64,000 nucleotides of DNA, from the NCBI RefSeq assembly GCF_021261315.1, contig NZ_JAJSAX010000006.1, positions 124,001-188,000 of the forward strand. Reading direction: 5' to 3'. Below the pieces are notes generated by a model. The model had not been told where the DNA came from. It was given only the letters and a program-made list of their open reading frames with translations, and did not search any database. Within the stretch, counting starts at the first letter, position 1. Every line of letters begins with the position of its first letter. This DNA is from Epilithonimonas sp. JDS (GTDB lineage: Bacteria; Bacteroidota; Bacteroidia; Flavobacteriales; Weeksellaceae). This document shows, piece after piece, positions 624-62,805 of the stretch. The position numbers were made by a program, and so were the translations under genes.

Positions 624-1106
624 ATGGAAGTCAGAAAATCAAATCCGGAAGACATCAACCAAATAATGAACTGCATCGACACGGCCAGACAGCTGATGCG
701 GGAAAGTGGAAACCTAATCCAATGGACCAATGGTTATCCTTCCAAGGAATTGATGTTGGATAGTATTGATAATGGATTTAATTTTTTGATTATCGAAAAT
801 GATGACATCGTTGCGACTTTCGATTTCATTATTGGTGATGACCCAAATTATGCAAAAATTGAAAACGGAACTTGGTTGAATGACGAAAAGTACGGCGTCA
901 TCCACAGATTGGCATCCAACGGAAAAACAAAAGGCGTCGCGAGATTCTGCTTCGAGTGGTGTTTTTCCCAATTCCCGAACATCAGAATCGATACGCACGA
1001 AACCAACATCGCGATGCAAAAAGTCTTGGAAAAACTCGGTTACGAAAAGTGCGGAATCATTTATGTTGCGGATGGAACACCGAGGTTGGCGTTTCAGAAA
1101 ATTTAG
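624..1106 (+). CDS. GNAT family N-acetyltransferase
   Basis: A 160-residue cytosolic protein with a GNAT fold. Residues about 92-115 hold the acetyl-CoA binding stretch (VIHRLASNGKTKGVA followed by a helix), then the DTHETNIAMQ and LEKLGYEKCG elements typical of the C-terminal half of GNAT enzymes. GNAT enzymes move an acetyl group from acetyl-CoA to an amine; the acceptor is unknown here. The ATG at 624 is the first in frame. It is divergent from the partial transporter gene and is followed by a dispersed repeat at 1121-1211. The family call is firm. Confidence 0.9.
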   Translation: MEVRKSNPEDINQIMNCIDTARQLMRESGNLIQWTNGYPSKELMLDSIDNGFNFLIIENDDIVATFDFIIGDDPNYAKIENGTWLNDEKYGVIHRLASNGKTKGVARFCFEWCFSQFPNIRIDTHETNIAMQKVLEKLGYEKCGIIYVADGTPRLAFQKI

Positions 1107-1120
1107 ACTGATAATAATTT

Positions 1121-1211
1121 GGGCAGCTATTTCCGCCTTCCACTCCCGCTATTTTTTGCCATCGCTTTTTCCAGCCGCAAAAAAAATGAGCTCCGTTCAA
1201 GTCGGGCTGCG
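1121..1211 (-). repeat. Structured intergenic repeat family A, copy 1
   Basis: On the minus strand this copy has the parts shared with the copies at 41481, 6523 and 52824. There is a closing helix GCAGC/GCTGC (plus-strand 1206-1210 with 1123-1127), an inner hairpin in which a T-run plus GC pairs with GC plus an A-run, and the tail GGCGGAAATAGCTGCCCA. It is the most diverged copy in the GTGGAAATCC block. It fills the spacer between the convergent GNAT and POT genes. Identification as a family is from the comparison within this window. Confidence 0.7.
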
Positions 1212-1230
1212 ACAATGCGGTGTTTAAATA

Positions 1231-5820: not shown

Positions 5821-5964
5821 ATGGAAACTAAATATCTGACGGAGGCACACAAGCGCAACTCGGAAGCCGCAATCAAACAAATAAAAGAATGGAAAAAATC
5901 ACCAGTCAATTTGGAGAATGCCTTGAAGAAGCTCAGAGAAAACGCCAAGGACAAAAAAGTCTAA
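5821..5964 (+). CDS. Small charged protein (47 aa) overlapping a kinase-like gene
   Basis: The ATG at 5821 opens a 47-codon frame beginning METKYLTEAHKRNSEAAIKQ and ending ENAKDKKV. It is rich in Lys, Glu and Ala and is predicted to be helical throughout. A -7 box lies 19 nt upstream. Its last 76 bp overlap, in another frame, the start of the kinase-like gene at 5889. I do not recognise the family. The arrangement (promoter, small protein, overlapping larger gene) is like that of toxin-antitoxin or regulatory pairs, but no function should be assumed. It could also be a spurious frame; the promoter and the protein-like composition favour a real gene. Confidence 0.5.
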   Translation: METKYLTEAHKRNSEAAIKQIKEWKKSPVNLENALKKLRENAKDKKV

Positions 5965-6467
5965 CACGTCACGAGCAAGAAGATTTTGAGAAACAAACAG
6001 CTTTTGATTATGCTAAAGCAAATGATTTGTGGATAGATAATTTCTATTCTCTTGGCAAACCGACGGAAGTAAGCGGATATGAAAATACGCTCGCCTTGGA
6101 TGAAGAAAATGGCATCATTTACAAGTCCAACAATCTTTTTAATTCTGGTTTTCTGATTTCCAATCTTTTTAAGCAACTTACTATCCATAATATTCTTTTC
6201 CCAGAAACAAAGTACGATTTTGTTGGCTTCACAGGCTTTGACAATGGCAAAAATCGAGTGCCGTATGTTGAAGTTATTATCAAGCAAGATTTTGTGAAAA
6301 ATGCCGTGCAGGCAACACCTCAGGAAATTGAAACTTTTATGCTGTCACTTGATTTTGATAAAATAAATAGCACGACTTTTTCTAATGAAACATATACTGT
6401 TTCTGATTTACATCCCAGAAATGTGCTGAAAGACCCTAACGGAATTATTTATGTCGTGATAATATAA
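5889..6467 (+). CDS. Polyvalent-protein type kinase-like protein, possibly frameshifted at the C-terminus
   Basis: A 192-residue protein resembling the small Ser/Thr/Tyr kinase-like domain known from phage polyvalent proteins. Residues about 60-80 hold SGYENTLALDEENGIIYKSN (glycine-rich loop and likely Lys), and residues about 172-178 hold the catalytic loop DLHPRNV with its Asp and Asn. In such kinases GxIYVVD follows, the Asp binding metal; here the frame reads GIIYVVII and stops. Shifting by one base at 6456-6458 gives VVDNITAEN and a stop at 6479-6481, so a single-base indel may have removed the Asp. There is no in-frame ATG between 5889 and the kinase core, so the start overlaps the small upstream ORF. 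Substrate and role are unknown. Confidence 0.6.
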   Translation: MEKITSQFGECLEEAQRKRQGQKSLTRHEQEDFEKQTAFDYAKANDLWIDNFYSLGKPTEVSGYENTLALDEENGIIYKSNNLFNSGFLISNLFKQLTIHNILFPETKYDFVGFTGFDNGKNRVPYVEVIIKQDFVKNAVQATPQEIETFMLSLDFDKINSTTFSNETYTVSDLHPRNVLKDPNGIIYVVII

Positions 6468-6522
6468 CGGCAGAAAACTAATCGTCTGTTTGTTGGAAAT
6501 GTTGTTTTTAGTCAGAATCGTT

Positions 6523-6639
6523 ATGCGTGAGGGATAGTAGTGGAAATCCTTTTTTGCGGGGGAATTGGTGTGGGAAAAAGATTGTAGCGGATAGCCCGAC
6601 CCGAGCGGTGGCATTAGGGTTGGCGAGGGTCACGCCCAA
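6523..6639 (+). repeat. Structured intergenic repeat family A, copy 3
   Basis: This copy has the closing helix GCGTGA (6525-6530) with TCACGC (6630-6635), the conserved block AGTGGAAATCCTTTTTTGCG, an inner helix AATC-T-run with A-run-GATT, and the following block GATTGTAGCGGATAGCCCGA. The closing helix differs in sequence from the copies at 1121 and 41481 but still pairs. It lies between the kinase-like gene and trhO. Confidence 0.75.
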
Positions 6640-41121: not shown

Positions 41122-41358
41122 ATGAAAGAGCCAATTGTAATCAACGGAATGCGCCACAAAATGGAAAGAGAATGGTTTGGCGTGCTCACAAGATACGGAA
41201 CCAAACTCGGAATTCCGGTTTCGAAATTGCGTGTTTTCTTTATTTATTCTACGTTTGCGACGGCTGGGATTTTCTTTTTGTTTTATCTCGGATTGGCTTT
41301 TATGCTCTGGATTAAGGATTGTATTGTGACGAAGAGACCGAGTGTTTTTGATTTGTAA
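41122..41358 (+). CDS. PspC domain membrane protein
   Basis: A 78-residue inner-membrane protein with the PspC pattern: an N-terminal amphipathic helix (EREWFGVLTRYGTKLGIPVSKLRVFFIYST) and a single hydrophobic segment (AGIFFLFYLGLAFMLW). PspC proteins belong to the phage-shock envelope stress response; no pspA is nearby. It starts 15 bp after the DUF2851 gene. Confidence 0.83.
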   Translation: MKEPIVINGMRHKMEREWFGVLTRYGTKLGIPVSKLRVFFIYSTFATAGIFFLFYLGLAFMLWIKDCIVTKRPSVFDL

Positions 41359-41396: not shown

Positions 41397-41480
41397 GCTT
41401 TAAAGATATTTAAGCCGGTTTAATGTTTCAGATTTTGAACGGGTTTTCGTTTTATAGACAAATGTTGTTTTGTACTGAAA

Positions 41481-41571
41481 TCCGCAGCCCGGCTTGAGTG
41501 GAAATCCTTTTTTGCGGCTGGAAAAGCAAAGGCAAAAAGATTGGGAACGGAAGACGGAAATAGCTGCCCAA
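41481..41571 (+). repeat. Structured intergenic repeat family A, copy 2
   Basis: The best preserved copy. The closing helix GCAGC (41484-41488) with GCTGC (41563-41567) encloses GAGTGGAAATCC, a hairpin AATCC-TTTTTTGC...GCAAAAAGATT, and the block GGAACGGAAGACGGAAATA. Together with the neighbouring single family C arm it explains most of the 308-bp spacer 41359-41666. I see no gene there. Confidence 0.75.
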
Positions 41572-41582
41572 ATATAATCCAC

Positions 41583-41666: not shown

Positions 41667-42440
41667 TTATGGATTTGCAGTTTTAAGGTTTGCAGACGCA
41701 TATTCTCTGTTCATTCTTGCGATGTTCTCTAGAGAGATTCCTTTCGGACATTCTACTTCACAAGCGCCCGTGTTGGAACAGTTTCCGAAACCTTCTTCGT
41801 CCATTGCTTTTACCATGTTCAGAACTCTTCTGGTAGCTTCTACACGACCTTGAGGCAACAATGCGAACTGAGATACTTTTGCACCAACGAACAACATTGC
41901 TGAGCCGTTTTTACAAGAAGCCACACAAGCGCCGCAACCGATACATGCCGCAGCATCCATCGCTTTGTCAGCGTCTTCTTTCGGAACCAGGATTGCGTTG
42001 GCATCTAAAGTGTTTCCGGAAGTGTTCACAGATACGAATCCGCCGGCAGCCATTACTCTGTCAAAAGCACTTCTGTCAACCACCAAATCTTTGATCACCG
42101 GAAAAGCAGCACTTCTCCAAGGTTCGATGTGGATGGTTTCGCCATCTTTGAAATGACGCATATGCAACTGGCAAGTCGTAATTCCTGTATCAGGTCCGTG
42201 CGCTCTACCATTGATGTAAAGTGAACACATTCCGCAGATTCCTTCGCGACAATCGTGATCGAATGCAACTGGATCTTGTCCGTTGTTGATCAACTGCTCG
42301 TTCAGGATGTCCAACATTTCCAGGAATGAAGAATCCGTGGAAACATCAGCCAATTTATAGGTTTCGAATTGACCTTTTGTTTTATTGTTTTTTTGTCTCC
42401 AAATTTTCAGCGTAAGATTTAAGCCTTTTTTTGCACTCAT
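41667..42440 (-). CDS. sdhB: Succinate dehydrogenase/fumarate reductase iron-sulfur subunit
   Basis: A 257-residue electron-transfer subunit on the cytoplasmic face of complex II. The [2Fe-2S] ligands are C64, C69, C72 and C90; the [4Fe-4S] ligands C166, C169, C172 and C176; the [3Fe-4S] set C221, C227 and C231. It passes electrons between the SdhA flavin and quinone. It is the last gene of sdhC-sdhA-DUF2846-sdhB; the DUF2846 gene ends 24 bp upstream. All expected cluster ligands are present. Confidence 0.96.
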
Positions 42441-52093: not shown

Positions 52094-52666
52094 TTACGCC
52101 TGAGTTTCTTCAGTTCCTTCTGCTTCAGCAGTTGGTTCTTCAGTCGCAGTTTCTTCAGTTGCAACTTCTTCAGCAGGTGCGTTTGCAGCCTCTTCAGCAG
52201 CTTTTGCATCAGCTTCAGCTTTCGCAGCAGCGTCAATTCTTGCTTGGTTTACTTTGGCTTCAGCTTCCAAAGCCGCTTTCTTAGCGTCAGATTTTGCTGT
52301 AGATAAACCTTCAACTTTACCTTGTACTTTAGCATCTTTAGCGTCAACCCAAGCAGCGAATCTCTTCTCAGCTTCAGCCTCGTCAAAAGCACCTTTAGCC
52401 ACACCACCTTGAAGGTGTTTTTTGTACAAAGCACCTTTGTAAGAAAGGATAGCTCTTGCAGTGTCAGTTGGCTGTGCACCGTTGTTCAACCATTTAACAG
52501 CAGAATCAACGTTCAAATCGATAGTTGCTGGGTTTGTAATTGGGTTGTAAGTACCTAATTTTTCGATGAATCTACCATCTCTTCTAGCTCTTGCATCCGC
52601 AACTACGATGTGGAAGAAAGGTTTTCCTTTCGAACCGTGTCTTTGTAATCTGATTTTTACTGACAT
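52094..52666 (-). CDS. rpsP: 30S ribosomal protein S16 with a long acidic/Ala tail
   Basis: A 190-residue protein. Residues 1-82 are ordinary S16 ([62 protein letters not shown]). The remaining 100 residues are a tail: a helical Lys/Ala section, then [22 protein letters not shown]. Usual S16 has 80-90 residues; tails of this type are common in Bacteroidota. Its -7 box lies 47 bp upstream. It is expected next to rimM and trmD; here trmD is 4.8 kb away on the same strand. Confidence 0.94.
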
Positions 52667-52823: not shown

Positions 52824-52912
52824 GGAGCCGGGAACCTGCTTTCCGTTGCAATTCCTCGCGCCTGGCTTTTCCCAACGCCTGCTGTGGGATTTCCACTGCA
52901 ATCAGGGCTATG
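52824..52912 (-). repeat. Structured intergenic repeat family A, copy 4
   Basis: On the minus strand: closing helix AGCC (52906-52909) with GGCT (52826-52829), the shared block GCAGTGGAAATCC, an inner AATCC/GGAATT pairing, and the block ATTGCAACGGAAAGCAGG. The loop differs from the other copies. Confidence 0.7.
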
Positions 52913-53068
52913 GGATTTGTCATCCAATCAACAATTCTTGAAAATTTAGATAGTTATGAACAATTCTAATCAAACAATTAAGTCATCAAAGAATGGAAGA
53001 TTTCCAAAACTTATGTGTCCTTAATTGAACTACCTCACAAATCTTATCATCAACTTAAGTGTTAAAAA

Positions 53069-60776: not shown

Positions 60777-62588
60777 TTAAAAATTTAAATTCAGGCTGAC
60801 AGCATAATTCCTTTTTGGCATAAAGTAGTAATCTACCGTTGCATACACCATATCCGTTATATTATTGACCTTGAAGCCAATCTGAATATTTTTAATTGGA
60901 TTAATAGTAATTCCGGCATTTAAAATTAAGTAGTCATCTATAAAACGATTCTCATCGTTGTCTGTATAGATTTTGCTGTTATACAAAGCCTGAACGAATA
61001 AGCCAACCATTTTATATTGATAATTGGTATTGAAATTAATCTGATTAAACGGAACATAACTCAGTTGTTTCTTTGTTTCCTGATCAGTAGATCTTGTATA
61101 AGAATAGCTGATTTGAGATTTCAATTTCTGATTTGTCCAGTTTTTATTAAACGATAATTCGGTTTCAAGACCATAAAAATCAACATCTCTTACATTGACA
61201 GGCGACCAAATACCGGAAGACATTGGAATCCACTGGATCAGATCCTTTGCCTGCATATAATACGGCGTGATTCCCAATTTAAAATTTCTGTAACTGAAGT
61301 AATGCGACATCTCTGCCTGATACGATGTTTCCGCTTTCAAATCCGGATTTCCGCCTGGCTGCCAATACAAATCATTGAAAGTTGGCGCTTTGAAATTTCT
61401 GGAAATATTGATTGAAGTCTGGTACCAATTATTTACCTTAAATTTTCCGCTCGCTGAGAACAAAAACGGACTTTCAAAACCTTCCACAAAATCATATTTT
61501 GCACCCAGTTCCCAATAGAATTTTTCCTGATTTCCGTTTCTGTAAAGCAAAGAAAGGTTGAATTCGTTTCTTTTCGGATTTTGGATTCCGGATTGGTAGC
61601 CTTCGCCCTGTTTATATTGATATTCCGAAATTAAATTGAAAGAAGATTGTTTTGAAACTGAATAATCGAGGTCATTTCGCACGATGTATTGTTTTCCTGT
61701 TCCGCCGCTGGCTTTTGCTTGATTAATGTCTCCAAAATACTGAAAGTTGTCTTCCAGATAAACCAGCTTCAAATCGTTTTTTATCTTGTTTGAATTAAGT
61801 TTCCAGCCGGCTAAACTTCGCAAAGTCTGAACCTGATATTTTGTTTTGGTTTGATTTTCATCAAAAATAGGGTAGTGCTGATCGCTGTCGTAATGTTGGG
61901 TTTGAAGATAAAATTCGTTATTCTGATCTGTTTTATAAGCCAAACCAAGATTGAATCCCGTATTTTGATATTCTCCGTTTCTGTTGATGAATTTCTTTTC
62001 GGAAACTTCATAATCATTTTCACTTTGAGAATGATTTGCAGAAAAGCTGAAGCTCAATTTCTCGTTGCTGTATTTTGTTTTGATTAATGAATTAAAAGTT
62101 CCAAAAGAGCCATATTCCGAAAACAATGTTCCGTGAAATCCTTTGTCAAAATCCAGCGTATTATTAAGGTGAATCGAGCCGCCAATTGCGCCGCTTCCGT
62201 AGATCACACTTCCGCCACCAAATTTAATTCCGACATTATCATAACTCAACGGATTAAGATTATTAATATCGCCCTGACCAAGAAAAATAGAATTCACATT
62301 AATTCCATTCCATACAAAAGCCGTTCTTGGCGCTCCGGTTCCACGAAACGAAGGCGAAGAGGTTGCGCCACGACCATTTTCCTTGATGTAAATGTTGGAT
62401 TGAAATCTCAGAAGATCCGAAAGTGATGTCGAATTTTCTAAAATCTGATCAGAACTCAGATTCGATATTTTTGCTGTTTTCTCTACTTTATTGTATTGGT
62501 TATCAATAAATACAGTATCGATCAAAGTTTCCTGAGCGGAATATTGATGCAAGATTAACAGAGAAAAAAGTGTAAATAGACGTTTCAT
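60777..62588 (-). CDS. btuB: BtuB-like TonB-dependent cobalamin receptor
   Basis: A 603-residue outer-membrane receptor. The signal peptide MKRLFTLFSLLILHQYSAQ is followed by a plug (about 40-165: ENSTSLSDLLRFQSNIYIKENG, RGTGAPRTAFVWNGINVNSIF, GGGSVIYGSGAIGGSIHL) and a 22-strand-type barrel ending in NYAVSLNLNF. The frame continues nine codons upstream, but the ATG at 62588 begins the signal. A cobalamin riboswitch controls it (62633-62790), which identifies the substrate more firmly than the protein does. Confidence 0.93.
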   Translation of the reverse strand: MKRLFTLFSLLILHQYSAQETLIDTVFIDNQYNKVEKTAKISNLSSDQILENSTSLSDLLRFQSNIYIKENGRGATSSPSFRGTGAPRTAFVWNGINVNSIFLGQGDINNLNPLSYDNVGIKFGGGSVIYGSGAIGGSIHLNNTLDFDKGFHGTLFSEYGSFGTFNSLIKTKYSNEKLSFSFSANHSQSENDYEVSEKKFINRNGEYQNTGFNLGLAYKTDQNNEFYLQTQHYDSDQHYPIFDENQTKTKYQVQTLRSLAGWKLNSNKIKNDLKLVYLEDNFQYFGDINQAKASGGTGKQYIVRNDLDYSVSKQSSFNLISEYQYKQGEGYQSGIQNPKRNEFNLSLLYRNGNQEKFYWELGAKYDFVEGFESPFLFSASGKFKVNNWYQTSINISRNFKAPTFNDLYWQPGGNPDLKAETSYQAEMSHYFSYRNFKLGITPYYMQAKDLIQWIPMSSGIWSPVNVRDVDFYGLETELSFNKNWTNQKLKSQISYSYTRSTDQETKKQLSYVPFNQINFNTNYQYKMVGLFVQALYNSKIYTDNDENRFIDDYLILNAGITINPIKNIQIGFKVNNITDMVYATVDYYFMPKRNYAVSLNLNF

Positions 62589-62591
62589 AAT

Positions 62592-62640
62592 GACCTGCCT
62601 TTCCTCCGAAAGCATTGACTAATTTTTTTTCTGGCAGGTC
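62592..62640 (-). promoter_or_regulatory. Expression-platform hairpin of the cobalamin riboswitch
   Basis: On the minus strand GACCTGCC (62640-62633), the end of the aptamer, is complementary to GGCAGGTC (62599-62592), 3 bases before the ATG at 62588. Pairing would cover the ribosome-binding region with GGAGGAAAGG in the loop, so the two states may switch translation. Confidence 0.55.
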
Positions 62641-62790
62641 TCCTGACTTTCGCTGATTTTGCGCCTTCTCACCCGCCTAAGGCGGGCAATGGCAAAGATT
62701 GCAAAATACTTTGTTGCGATTTACAGTTGCGGGGACAGTTGAAGAATTGCGCTTCATTCCCTTTTAATCCCGAAACATTCGGGAACCAAA
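62633..62790 (-). ncRNA. Cobalamin (B12) riboswitch, aptamer
   Basis: The minus strand carries the classical elements in order: AAAAGGGAATGAAGCG, the core CTGTCCCCGCAACTGTAA, GCCATTG with a hairpin CCCGCC-TAA-GGCGGG (plus 62672-62686) and GAGAAGGC, then the B12 box AGCGAAAGTCAGGAGACC followed by TGCC. It lies directly upstream of the BtuB-like gene. The -7 box TATATTTG at 62798-62805 would start the transcript at its 5' end. Firm call. Confidence 0.95.
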
Positions 62791-62797
62791 TTCTCGG

Positions 62798-62805
62798 CAA
62801 ATATA
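62798..62805 (-). promoter_or_regulatory. -7 box of the riboswitch-btuB operon
   Basis: The minus strand reads TATATTTG. Transcription would begin about 7 nt later, at the 5' end of the aptamer. Confidence 0.6.

Follow-up and report, generated by a model that had tools for sequence, protein, structure and literature searches.

Flavo-1 in Epilithonimonas, catalogued as a small RNA, probably behaves as a chromosomal DNA hairpin repeat

Flavo-1 (RF01705) was predicted in a 2010 survey, whose entry on the family rates it as ‘probably’ an RNA and ‘probably not’ cis-regulatory (PMC2864571). Rfam gives it the type ‘Gene; sRNA’, and a 2022 review treats it under the most abundant small RNAs (PMC9029176). 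According to the passages on Flavo-1 in the 2021 transcriptome of F. psychrophilum, matches to the family are found sense or antisense indistinctly and many lie outside transcribed regions; several 5' transcribed regions coincide with matches, and these passages offer no clue to the function of the family (PMC9723704). The passages on Flavo-1 considered here contain no mention of a strand bias or a DNA nature of the element. On the side of DNA repeats, the systems to compare are the REPs, described as palindromes of 20–40 bp (PMC3733652), with their RAYT/TnpA-REP enzymes of the Y1 HUH type and the REPINs, and the relatives of IS200/IS605, which use the lagging strand template according to the relevant section of a study of Y1 enzymes (PMC6006769). 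The same section mentions a Bacteroidetes subclass of these enzymes flanked by ‘atypical secondary structures’ (PMC6006769).

The stretch of DNA analysed here, the window, comprises 64,000 nucleotides of Epilithonimonas sp. JDS. A sequence-only reading had placed four copies of a structured element in its spacers, and four related hairpins of ~90–120 bases each are indeed present, all of them intergenic. They are listed here with their neighbours, which were named from Pfam apart from the 78-aa ORF, an ORF call; element sequences are read on their own strands.

624–1106, plus strand: GNAT-type ORF, convergent with the transporter beyond W1
1117–1215, minus strand: W1, Flavo-1 variant C, ends GCAGCCCGACTTGA ... 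GGCGGAAATAGCTGCCC; model R1, 81.6 bits
1231–2907, minus strand: POT-type transporter
5889–6467, plus strand: Kinase-PolyVal ORF
6522–6639, plus strand: W2, Flavo-1 variant D, sense to both neighbours, ends GCGTGAGGGATAG ... TCACGCCC; RF01705 at 6506–6605, 56.8 bits
6723–8066, plus strand: rhodanese/UPF0176 protein
41122–41358, plus strand: 78-aa ORF, convergent with the gene beyond W3
41479–41573, plus strand: W3, Flavo-1 variant C, the copy of the original observation; model R1, 102.9 bits
41484–41488, plus strand: 5' strand of the W3 closing helix, GCAGC, paired with 41563–41567 in the R1 alignment and the fold
41563–41567, plus strand: 3' strand of the W3 closing helix, GCTGC, from the R1 alignment and the fold
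41667–42440, minus strand: SdhB-like iron-sulfur protein, which we take to be SdhB from its domain pair
52094–52666, minus strand: ribosomal S16-domain protein
52828–52913, minus strand: W4, Flavo-1, sense to both neighbours, ends TAGCCCTGAT ... GGTTCCCGGCTCC with a CCCACAGC apex; RF01705, 42.9 bits
53096–54388, minus strand: photolyase

Flavo-1 had been named as the first candidate for these elements, and RF01705 is the right match. Of the Rfam search proposed for all four copies, half succeeded: W2 and W4 reach the gathering score of 42 bits, whereas W3 stays below it with 32.2 bits and W1 is absent among the at least 110 RF01705 matches listed for the window genome. A new model, as had also been suggested, closes this gap. 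R1, a covariance model of 20 other variant C copies with W1 and W3 left out, detects both W3 (E 4e-28) and W1 (E 9e-22), the E-values being rough. Together with the RF01705 scores of W2 and W4, these values exclude chance resemblance for all four copies, which thus belong to one family, Flavo-1. They have the hairpin plan of RF01705, its TAGCC start, its symmetric internal loops and its A/T upper stem, and come from the same phylum. The difference lies in variant C (ends GCAGCCCGACTTGA and GGCGGATAAAGCTGCCCAAA), which, W3 included, scores under the gathering score and is detected by its own model. Many copies of variant C escape the Rfam model in this way: the family is known, the variant uncalled. 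Subfamilies were sorted by regular expression, with counts that differ between two versions. At the level of individual letters, the reported uniformity of the four copies was partly too generous. The block GTGGAAATCC is present in three of them (not W1), but ATTGNARCGGANAGC is exact in W2 and W4 only, and the inner helix AATCC-T-run/A-run-GATT does not extend to W4, with its CCCACAGC apex and no T-run, or to W1, which has other letters. The closing helices are as described, with GCAGC/GCTGC in two copies next to GCGTGA/TCACGC and AGCC/GGCT. Elsewhere in the window, a cobalamin riboswitch (62616–62805, minus strand, 103.8 bits) lies directly 5' of a 612-aa ORF on the same strand (60777–62615).

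How strictly are the arms paired? In the alignments, the co-varying arms with their internal loops follow the Rfam plan, and covariation, counted as cells changed on both sides, exceeds shuffles in type-A and in type-C copies. Among 20 type-A copies, 99.5% of the cells at ten tested pairs hold standard pairs, and 22 cells are changed on both sides compared with 8.1 in shuffles; among 20 type-C copies, the values are 98.7% and 14 versus 4.3. None of 500 shuffles came as high in either set, and shifting the partner by 1–3 columns abolishes pairing and covariation in both. The both-side variation is limited to 3 of 10 type-A and 4 of 23 type-C pairs, with most remaining pairs invariant, and two weaker measures do not stand out from the shuffles in the type-A set: 3 pairs with a double change versus 2.2 (146 of 500 shuffles) and 5 further pair types versus 5.8 (492 of 500). 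In a wider set of 230 copies that could be parsed from 283 loci, 211 show full complementarity at the central two-pair step, in the states GC/GC (81), AC/GT (72) and GT/AC (58). Between the paired steps, symmetric mismatches of GNA against GGA are seen to be conserved in the alignments; loops of the GNA/GGA type can form sheared G-A pairs. Free energies of the four window copies are unremarkable, with z values of -2.4 to +1.0 for RNA and -1.1 to +0.9 for DNA, and thermodynamic stability was dropped as an uninformative test between the two.

An RNA helix is expected to tolerate G-U better than A-C on the strand that acts. At five pair positions in 163 copies, parsed from the 283 loci, 767 of 815 cells are Watson-Crick; the others comprise 14 G-T, 9 A-C and 25 further combinations, so that the G-T excess over A-C is not clear (two-sided p 0.40) and the tolerance of G-U above A-C expected on the functional strand of an RNA helix does not appear. 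Among 31 tRNAs from the same loci, 60 of 650 standard pairs (9.2%) are G-T, whereas Flavo-1 has 14 of 781 (1.8%); Fisher's test gives p 2e-10, a value that is too small since the Flavo-1 copies are related and not independent. The comparison is confined to the wobble share, as the tRNA brackets showed no non-standard pair. The low number of G-T pairs and the lack of a clear preference for G-T over A-C point away from an RNA helix, whichever strand is taken. Few wobble pairs would, however, also be expected of a strictly paired RNA bound by a protein.

The element is abundant. The window genome (4.17 Mb) holds at least 110 RF01705 matches at E ≤10, 70 of those listed passing the gathering score, and at least 102 at E ≤0.001; these are lower bounds from scoring 150 of 1072 first-look candidates. 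All 23 genomes searched of the window genus, Epilithonimonas, carry Flavo-1, with 46–124 copies each, and of five genomes sampled from a sister genus, one gave at least 15 matches and the others 8, 6, 4 and 0. In an even sample of the phylum, at least 44 of 296 genomes have a match at E ≤0.001 under strict filters with at most 15 candidates scored per genome; most of those with at least 15 matches fall in one genus of the same order, here called g4, which is probably Flavobacterium. Carriage on plasmids or phages was discarded as a candidate: a single 131-base query had no match among 72,556 plasmid and 50,697 phage records, and none of the four viral contigs that matched a 20-base pattern shows Flavo-1 at gathering level. 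In G015, a genome with 123 copies, nearly 0.4 Mb (C1:2768681-3154482) is without a listed match.

Many of these copies have been in place for a long time. Comparing flanks with the element masked, we found a copy of the window genome's set at the same site for 35 of 50 examined loci of G015 and 37 of 70 loci of G022, two closed genomes. Orientation is kept in 34 of 36 G015 pairs and 35 of 38 G022 pairs, and in three of the five remaining pairs, copies lie side by side in opposite directions. With a median flank identity of 91.7% (G015) and 81.5% (G022), the shared sites in the same orientation indicate that many insertions are old. At these old sites the hairpins themselves have changed, and both arms have changed together. 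In 22 of 36 G022 sites that could be parsed, 60 of 88 pairs are the same, 22 changed on both sides and 6 on one side; in 25 of 36 G015 sites, 71 of 100 pairs are the same, 18 changed on both sides and 11 on one. Nearly all both-side changes lead from one Watson-Crick pair to another (21 of 22 in G022, 17 of 18 in G015), and at least one compensated pair is found at 12 of 22 G022 and 11 of 25 G015 sites. Flavo-1 offers an example, between two close species, of paired arms that co-change while the site is inherited.

The clearest examples among the G015 pairs show hairpins that differ more than their surroundings: L002/L304 (hairpin 57%, near 5' flank 81%, near 3' flank 98% identical), L022/L187 (55, 98 and 78%), L026/L186 (77, 98 and 98%) and L020/L190 (78, 95 and 84%). 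Over all 36 G015 sites, the medians are 82.5% for the hairpin, 75% for the near 5' and 87% for the near 3' flank, so the near 5' flank is generally not better conserved than the hairpin. Several coupled changes within a close pair are unlikely to have arisen by stepwise point change, which suggests copying or exchange. The source of new hairpins is the main gap in this account: no donor came to light. The closest counterpart of a copy within its genome is at most 95.2% identical, with a median of 85%, and 2 of 109 copies reach 95%. The lack of a near-identical donor argues against recent, simple copying inside the genome, and simple gene conversion from another copy of the same genome was rejected on this ground.

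The site of W3 illustrates both persistence and loss. The SdhB-like neighbour is 96% identical in E. mollis, 95% in E. hungarica and 82–93% in Elizabethkingia and Chryseobacterium; in E. mollis and E. hungarica the genes around the site have the same order and the element is absent. Among the 23 genus genomes, it is filled and intact in G000, G004, G008 and G020. G001 has another Flavo-1 variant there, in G013 the match runs across the element, and G017 retains a remnant. The element is lacking in 12 of the 21 genomes in which the site was resolved (G012 and G019 are outside these), three of the 12 having an unrelated stretch of ~0.9 kb. G011 and G018 also have the element at the site, each copy bearing a further short repeat within its 3' arm. 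With its 3' arm interrupted, the G011 copy has a decayed 5' arm that has lost its conserved letters, whereas with a similar insert the conserved letters of the 5' arm are still present in G018. This contrast, one example on each side, hints that the two arms are kept together. The spacers at W3 are too divergent to place the element ends, so that neither a target duplication nor a precise empty site was established. Short repeats of this kind (CTTCGTCGAACCACTTCGTTAGG-like and CCTTCGACAGGCTCAGG-like) sit inside the Flavo-1 3' arm, at GATTG or a few bases past it, in four cases: two loci of the window genome (L107 and L103) and the W3 sites of G018 (L429) and G011 (L428). An insertion preference near GATTG of the 3' arm is possible.

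The strand on which the element lies carries a further signal. Classified with a simple ORF caller, 47 of the 111 copies in the window genome are antisense to both neighbours and 18 sense, with 21 convergent, 21 divergent and 4 in predicted ORFs; W2 and W4, the co-oriented copies of the window, are both sense to their genes. An intrinsic terminator was considered and set aside, as the equal numbers of convergent and divergent copies (21 and 21 of 111) reveal no 3'-end preference. In the closed genomes G022 and G015, the majority strand changes at two points separated by half a genome. The best split into two arms has the strand agreeing for 75 of 106 copies in G022 and 84 of 123 in G015, a fit reached by 0 and 1 of 1000 strand shuffles on the same grid, respectively; the choice of arm boundaries was itself guided by the strands of the element. 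The eight 5S rRNA genes that the two genomes have between them all agree with the arms and set the direction: the Rfam strand opposes the fork. For a third closed genome, G019, the arms were fixed from its 5S genes before the strand result: 44 of 68 copies lie against the fork (one-sided p 0.010). Nine of the 68 had been listed earlier, of which five agree; the other 59 give 39 (p 0.009). GC skew in 12-kb samples every 200 kb matches the arms only roughly in G022 and G015 and is mixed in G015; skew from 3-kb loci in G228 was too noisy, and the arms were oriented by 5S genes in its place. Neighbouring copies lie on the same strand more often than in shuffles in G022 (62 versus 52.9; 49 of 1000 shuffles) and not in G015 (61 versus 62.5; 692 of 1000) or G019 (36 versus 34.0; 404 of 1000).

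Does this bias follow the fork or the genes? Taking G022 and G015 together (116 of 120 loci used), 43 of 49 copies between genes that run along the fork are antisense and against the fork, with 6 otherwise. Between genes that oppose the fork, the counts are 14 sense and 13 antisense copies. In convergent and divergent settings, where gene direction cannot confound, 26 copies lie against the fork versus 14 (two-sided p 0.08). Two additive effects, of fork and of transcription, describe these strand counts; the effect of the fork alone is less certain. Two genomes of g4, G192 and G228, show no strand bias: 22 of 38 copies agree in one, which 986 of 1000 shuffles equal, and 26 of 41 in the other (585 of 1000). 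The bias is therefore not a property of the whole family. Thirty loci of one g4 genome comprise 9 antisense, 7 sense, 9 divergent and 4 convergent copies, with 1 skipped.

Taken together, we consider it probable that Flavo-1 is a chromosomal DNA hairpin repeat, REP-like in its behaviour, whose hairpins are renewed in place. This reading draws on the high copy number, the paired arms with near-strict Watson-Crick covariation and the conserved symmetric mismatches, on long-inherited intergenic sites at which both arms change together, and, in the window genus, on the strand bias against co-oriented genes and the fork. The element would then function or be maintained by way of a DNA hairpin, either as a cruciform or in the single-stranded DNA of the fork, rather than as a transcribed RNA. 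The hairpin may form in lagging-strand DNA, and renewal in place could come about by sequence copying during fork passage or repair, with polymerase template switching, a hairpin nuclease plus repair, or another protein as candidate agents. A more specific version, in which Flavo-1 marks fixed chromosomal addresses whose DNA hairpins are rewritten time and again in place, in both arms at once, linked to fork passage, without a dedicated transposase and not as RNA, strikes us as doubtful.

Against the DNA hairpin stands the database default, a structured RNA acting in trans or in cis, made from the Rfam strand and with its helices selected on the transcript. The sequence-only reading had also taken this view: conserved loops with changing helices were said to point to selection on RNA. 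While the strong covariation, the Rfam type ‘Gene; sRNA’, the ‘probably’ of the 2010 survey entry (PMC2864571) and the 5' transcribed regions in F. psychrophilum that coincide with several matches (PMC9723704) agree with it, the step from covariation to RNA is not supported. Wobble pairs do not clearly exceed A-C (14 versus 9), antisense copies outnumber sense copies next to co-oriented genes (47 versus 18), RNA fold energies are no better than shuffles in three of the four window copies, and the published Flavo-1 transcription is indifferent to strand, with matches on either strand and many untranscribed in the passages concerned (PMC9723704). We therefore regard a structured RNA as unlikely; it is not favoured by these data, and on balance the DNA reading is the more probable of the two. 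The antisense bias could be accounted for if the complementary strand were the active one, as a 3'-end element of mRNAs, a terminator or RNA stabiliser acting on read-through. By eye, T-rich sequence resembling GGGATTTTGTC often comes after the hairpin in the antisense direction, and copies lie closer to stop than to start codons, in keeping with the 47 antisense and 18 sense copies. Such an element should nonetheless favour convergent over divergent spacers, which hold 21 copies each, and A-C in the Rfam sense, which is G-T on the complement and is not the favoured mismatch (9 versus 14); moreover, copies between genes that oppose the fork show no antisense preference (13 versus 14). We hold this explanation to be quite improbable.

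A further alternative is an element that serves the chromosome and is retained by the host for that reason, such as a site for gyrase, a nucleoid protein or segregation, with polarity from origin to terminus. The 46–124 copies in 23 of 23 genus genomes searched, the long-lived sites and the strand polarity in G022, G015 and G019 suit such a role, which is hard to reconcile with a sister genus whose five sampled genomes range from no match, in one of them, to at least 15, with the missing polarity in two g4 genomes and with a W3 site that is empty in 12 of 21 resolved genus genomes; it, too, has little probability in our view. If Flavo-1 is a DNA hairpin, many annotations of sRNA genes in Bacteroidetes would be mislabelled, and covariation alone could not separate RNA hairpins from DNA hairpins.

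Among known repeats, REPs are the nearest behavioural match to the DNA hairpin proposed here. Like REPs with RAYTs and REPINs, Flavo-1 consists of many short hairpin repeats in spacers, and its strand has some link to the fork, as in the relatives of IS200/IS605 on the lagging strand template; this orientation-fork tie is seen in G022, G015 and G019 and is missing in G192 and G228. A REP/RAYT system is appealing for its link to the lagging strand and for the GGAG with which the complementary strand of the element starts. GGAG is a mark of REPs, although the portions of the REP literature consulted here do not contain it. In size, the two differ, with ~100 bases for the window element versus 20–40 bp for REPs as given in the cited description (PMC3733652). 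A Y1_Tnp domain (PF01797) matches in 21 of the 23 genus genomes, the exceptions being G001 and G021, which hold 90 and 109 copies of Flavo-1. Around 20 Y1 loci, one per genome, of 56 Y1 matches, no RF01705 match at E ≤0.5 was found near the Y1 gene (~1.5 kb). REP/RAYT was rejected on these two grounds, copy-rich genomes without Y1_Tnp and 0 of 20 scanned Y1 loci with the element. A link of Flavo-1 to the Bacteroidetes Y1 subclass with ‘atypical secondary structures’ is possible. MITEs share with Flavo-1 a short length, the absence of coding sequence, inverted arms and a spread over many sites, but Flavo-1 lacks recent near-identical copies.

Several smaller observations concern the borders of the element and the Y1 loci. 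The hexamer GACAAA occurs 46 times in the 50 bases 5' of the Rfam match among the window genome's copies and 0–5 times per further 50-base bin. In matched settings, the next gene lies farther away on the 5' side of Flavo-1, the median gap being some 45–100 bases longer there. The repeat unit may therefore begin 5' of the Rfam model; by eye, nothing convincing as a promoter was seen 5' of the element. Finally, another Rfam family, Acido-Lenti-1 (RF01687, cut-off 37), matches within two of the Y1 loci, at L333:1279–1324 (36.6 bits) and L328:1938–1982 (24.2 bits), and this ‘RNA’, too, may be a repeat tied to a Y1 transposase.
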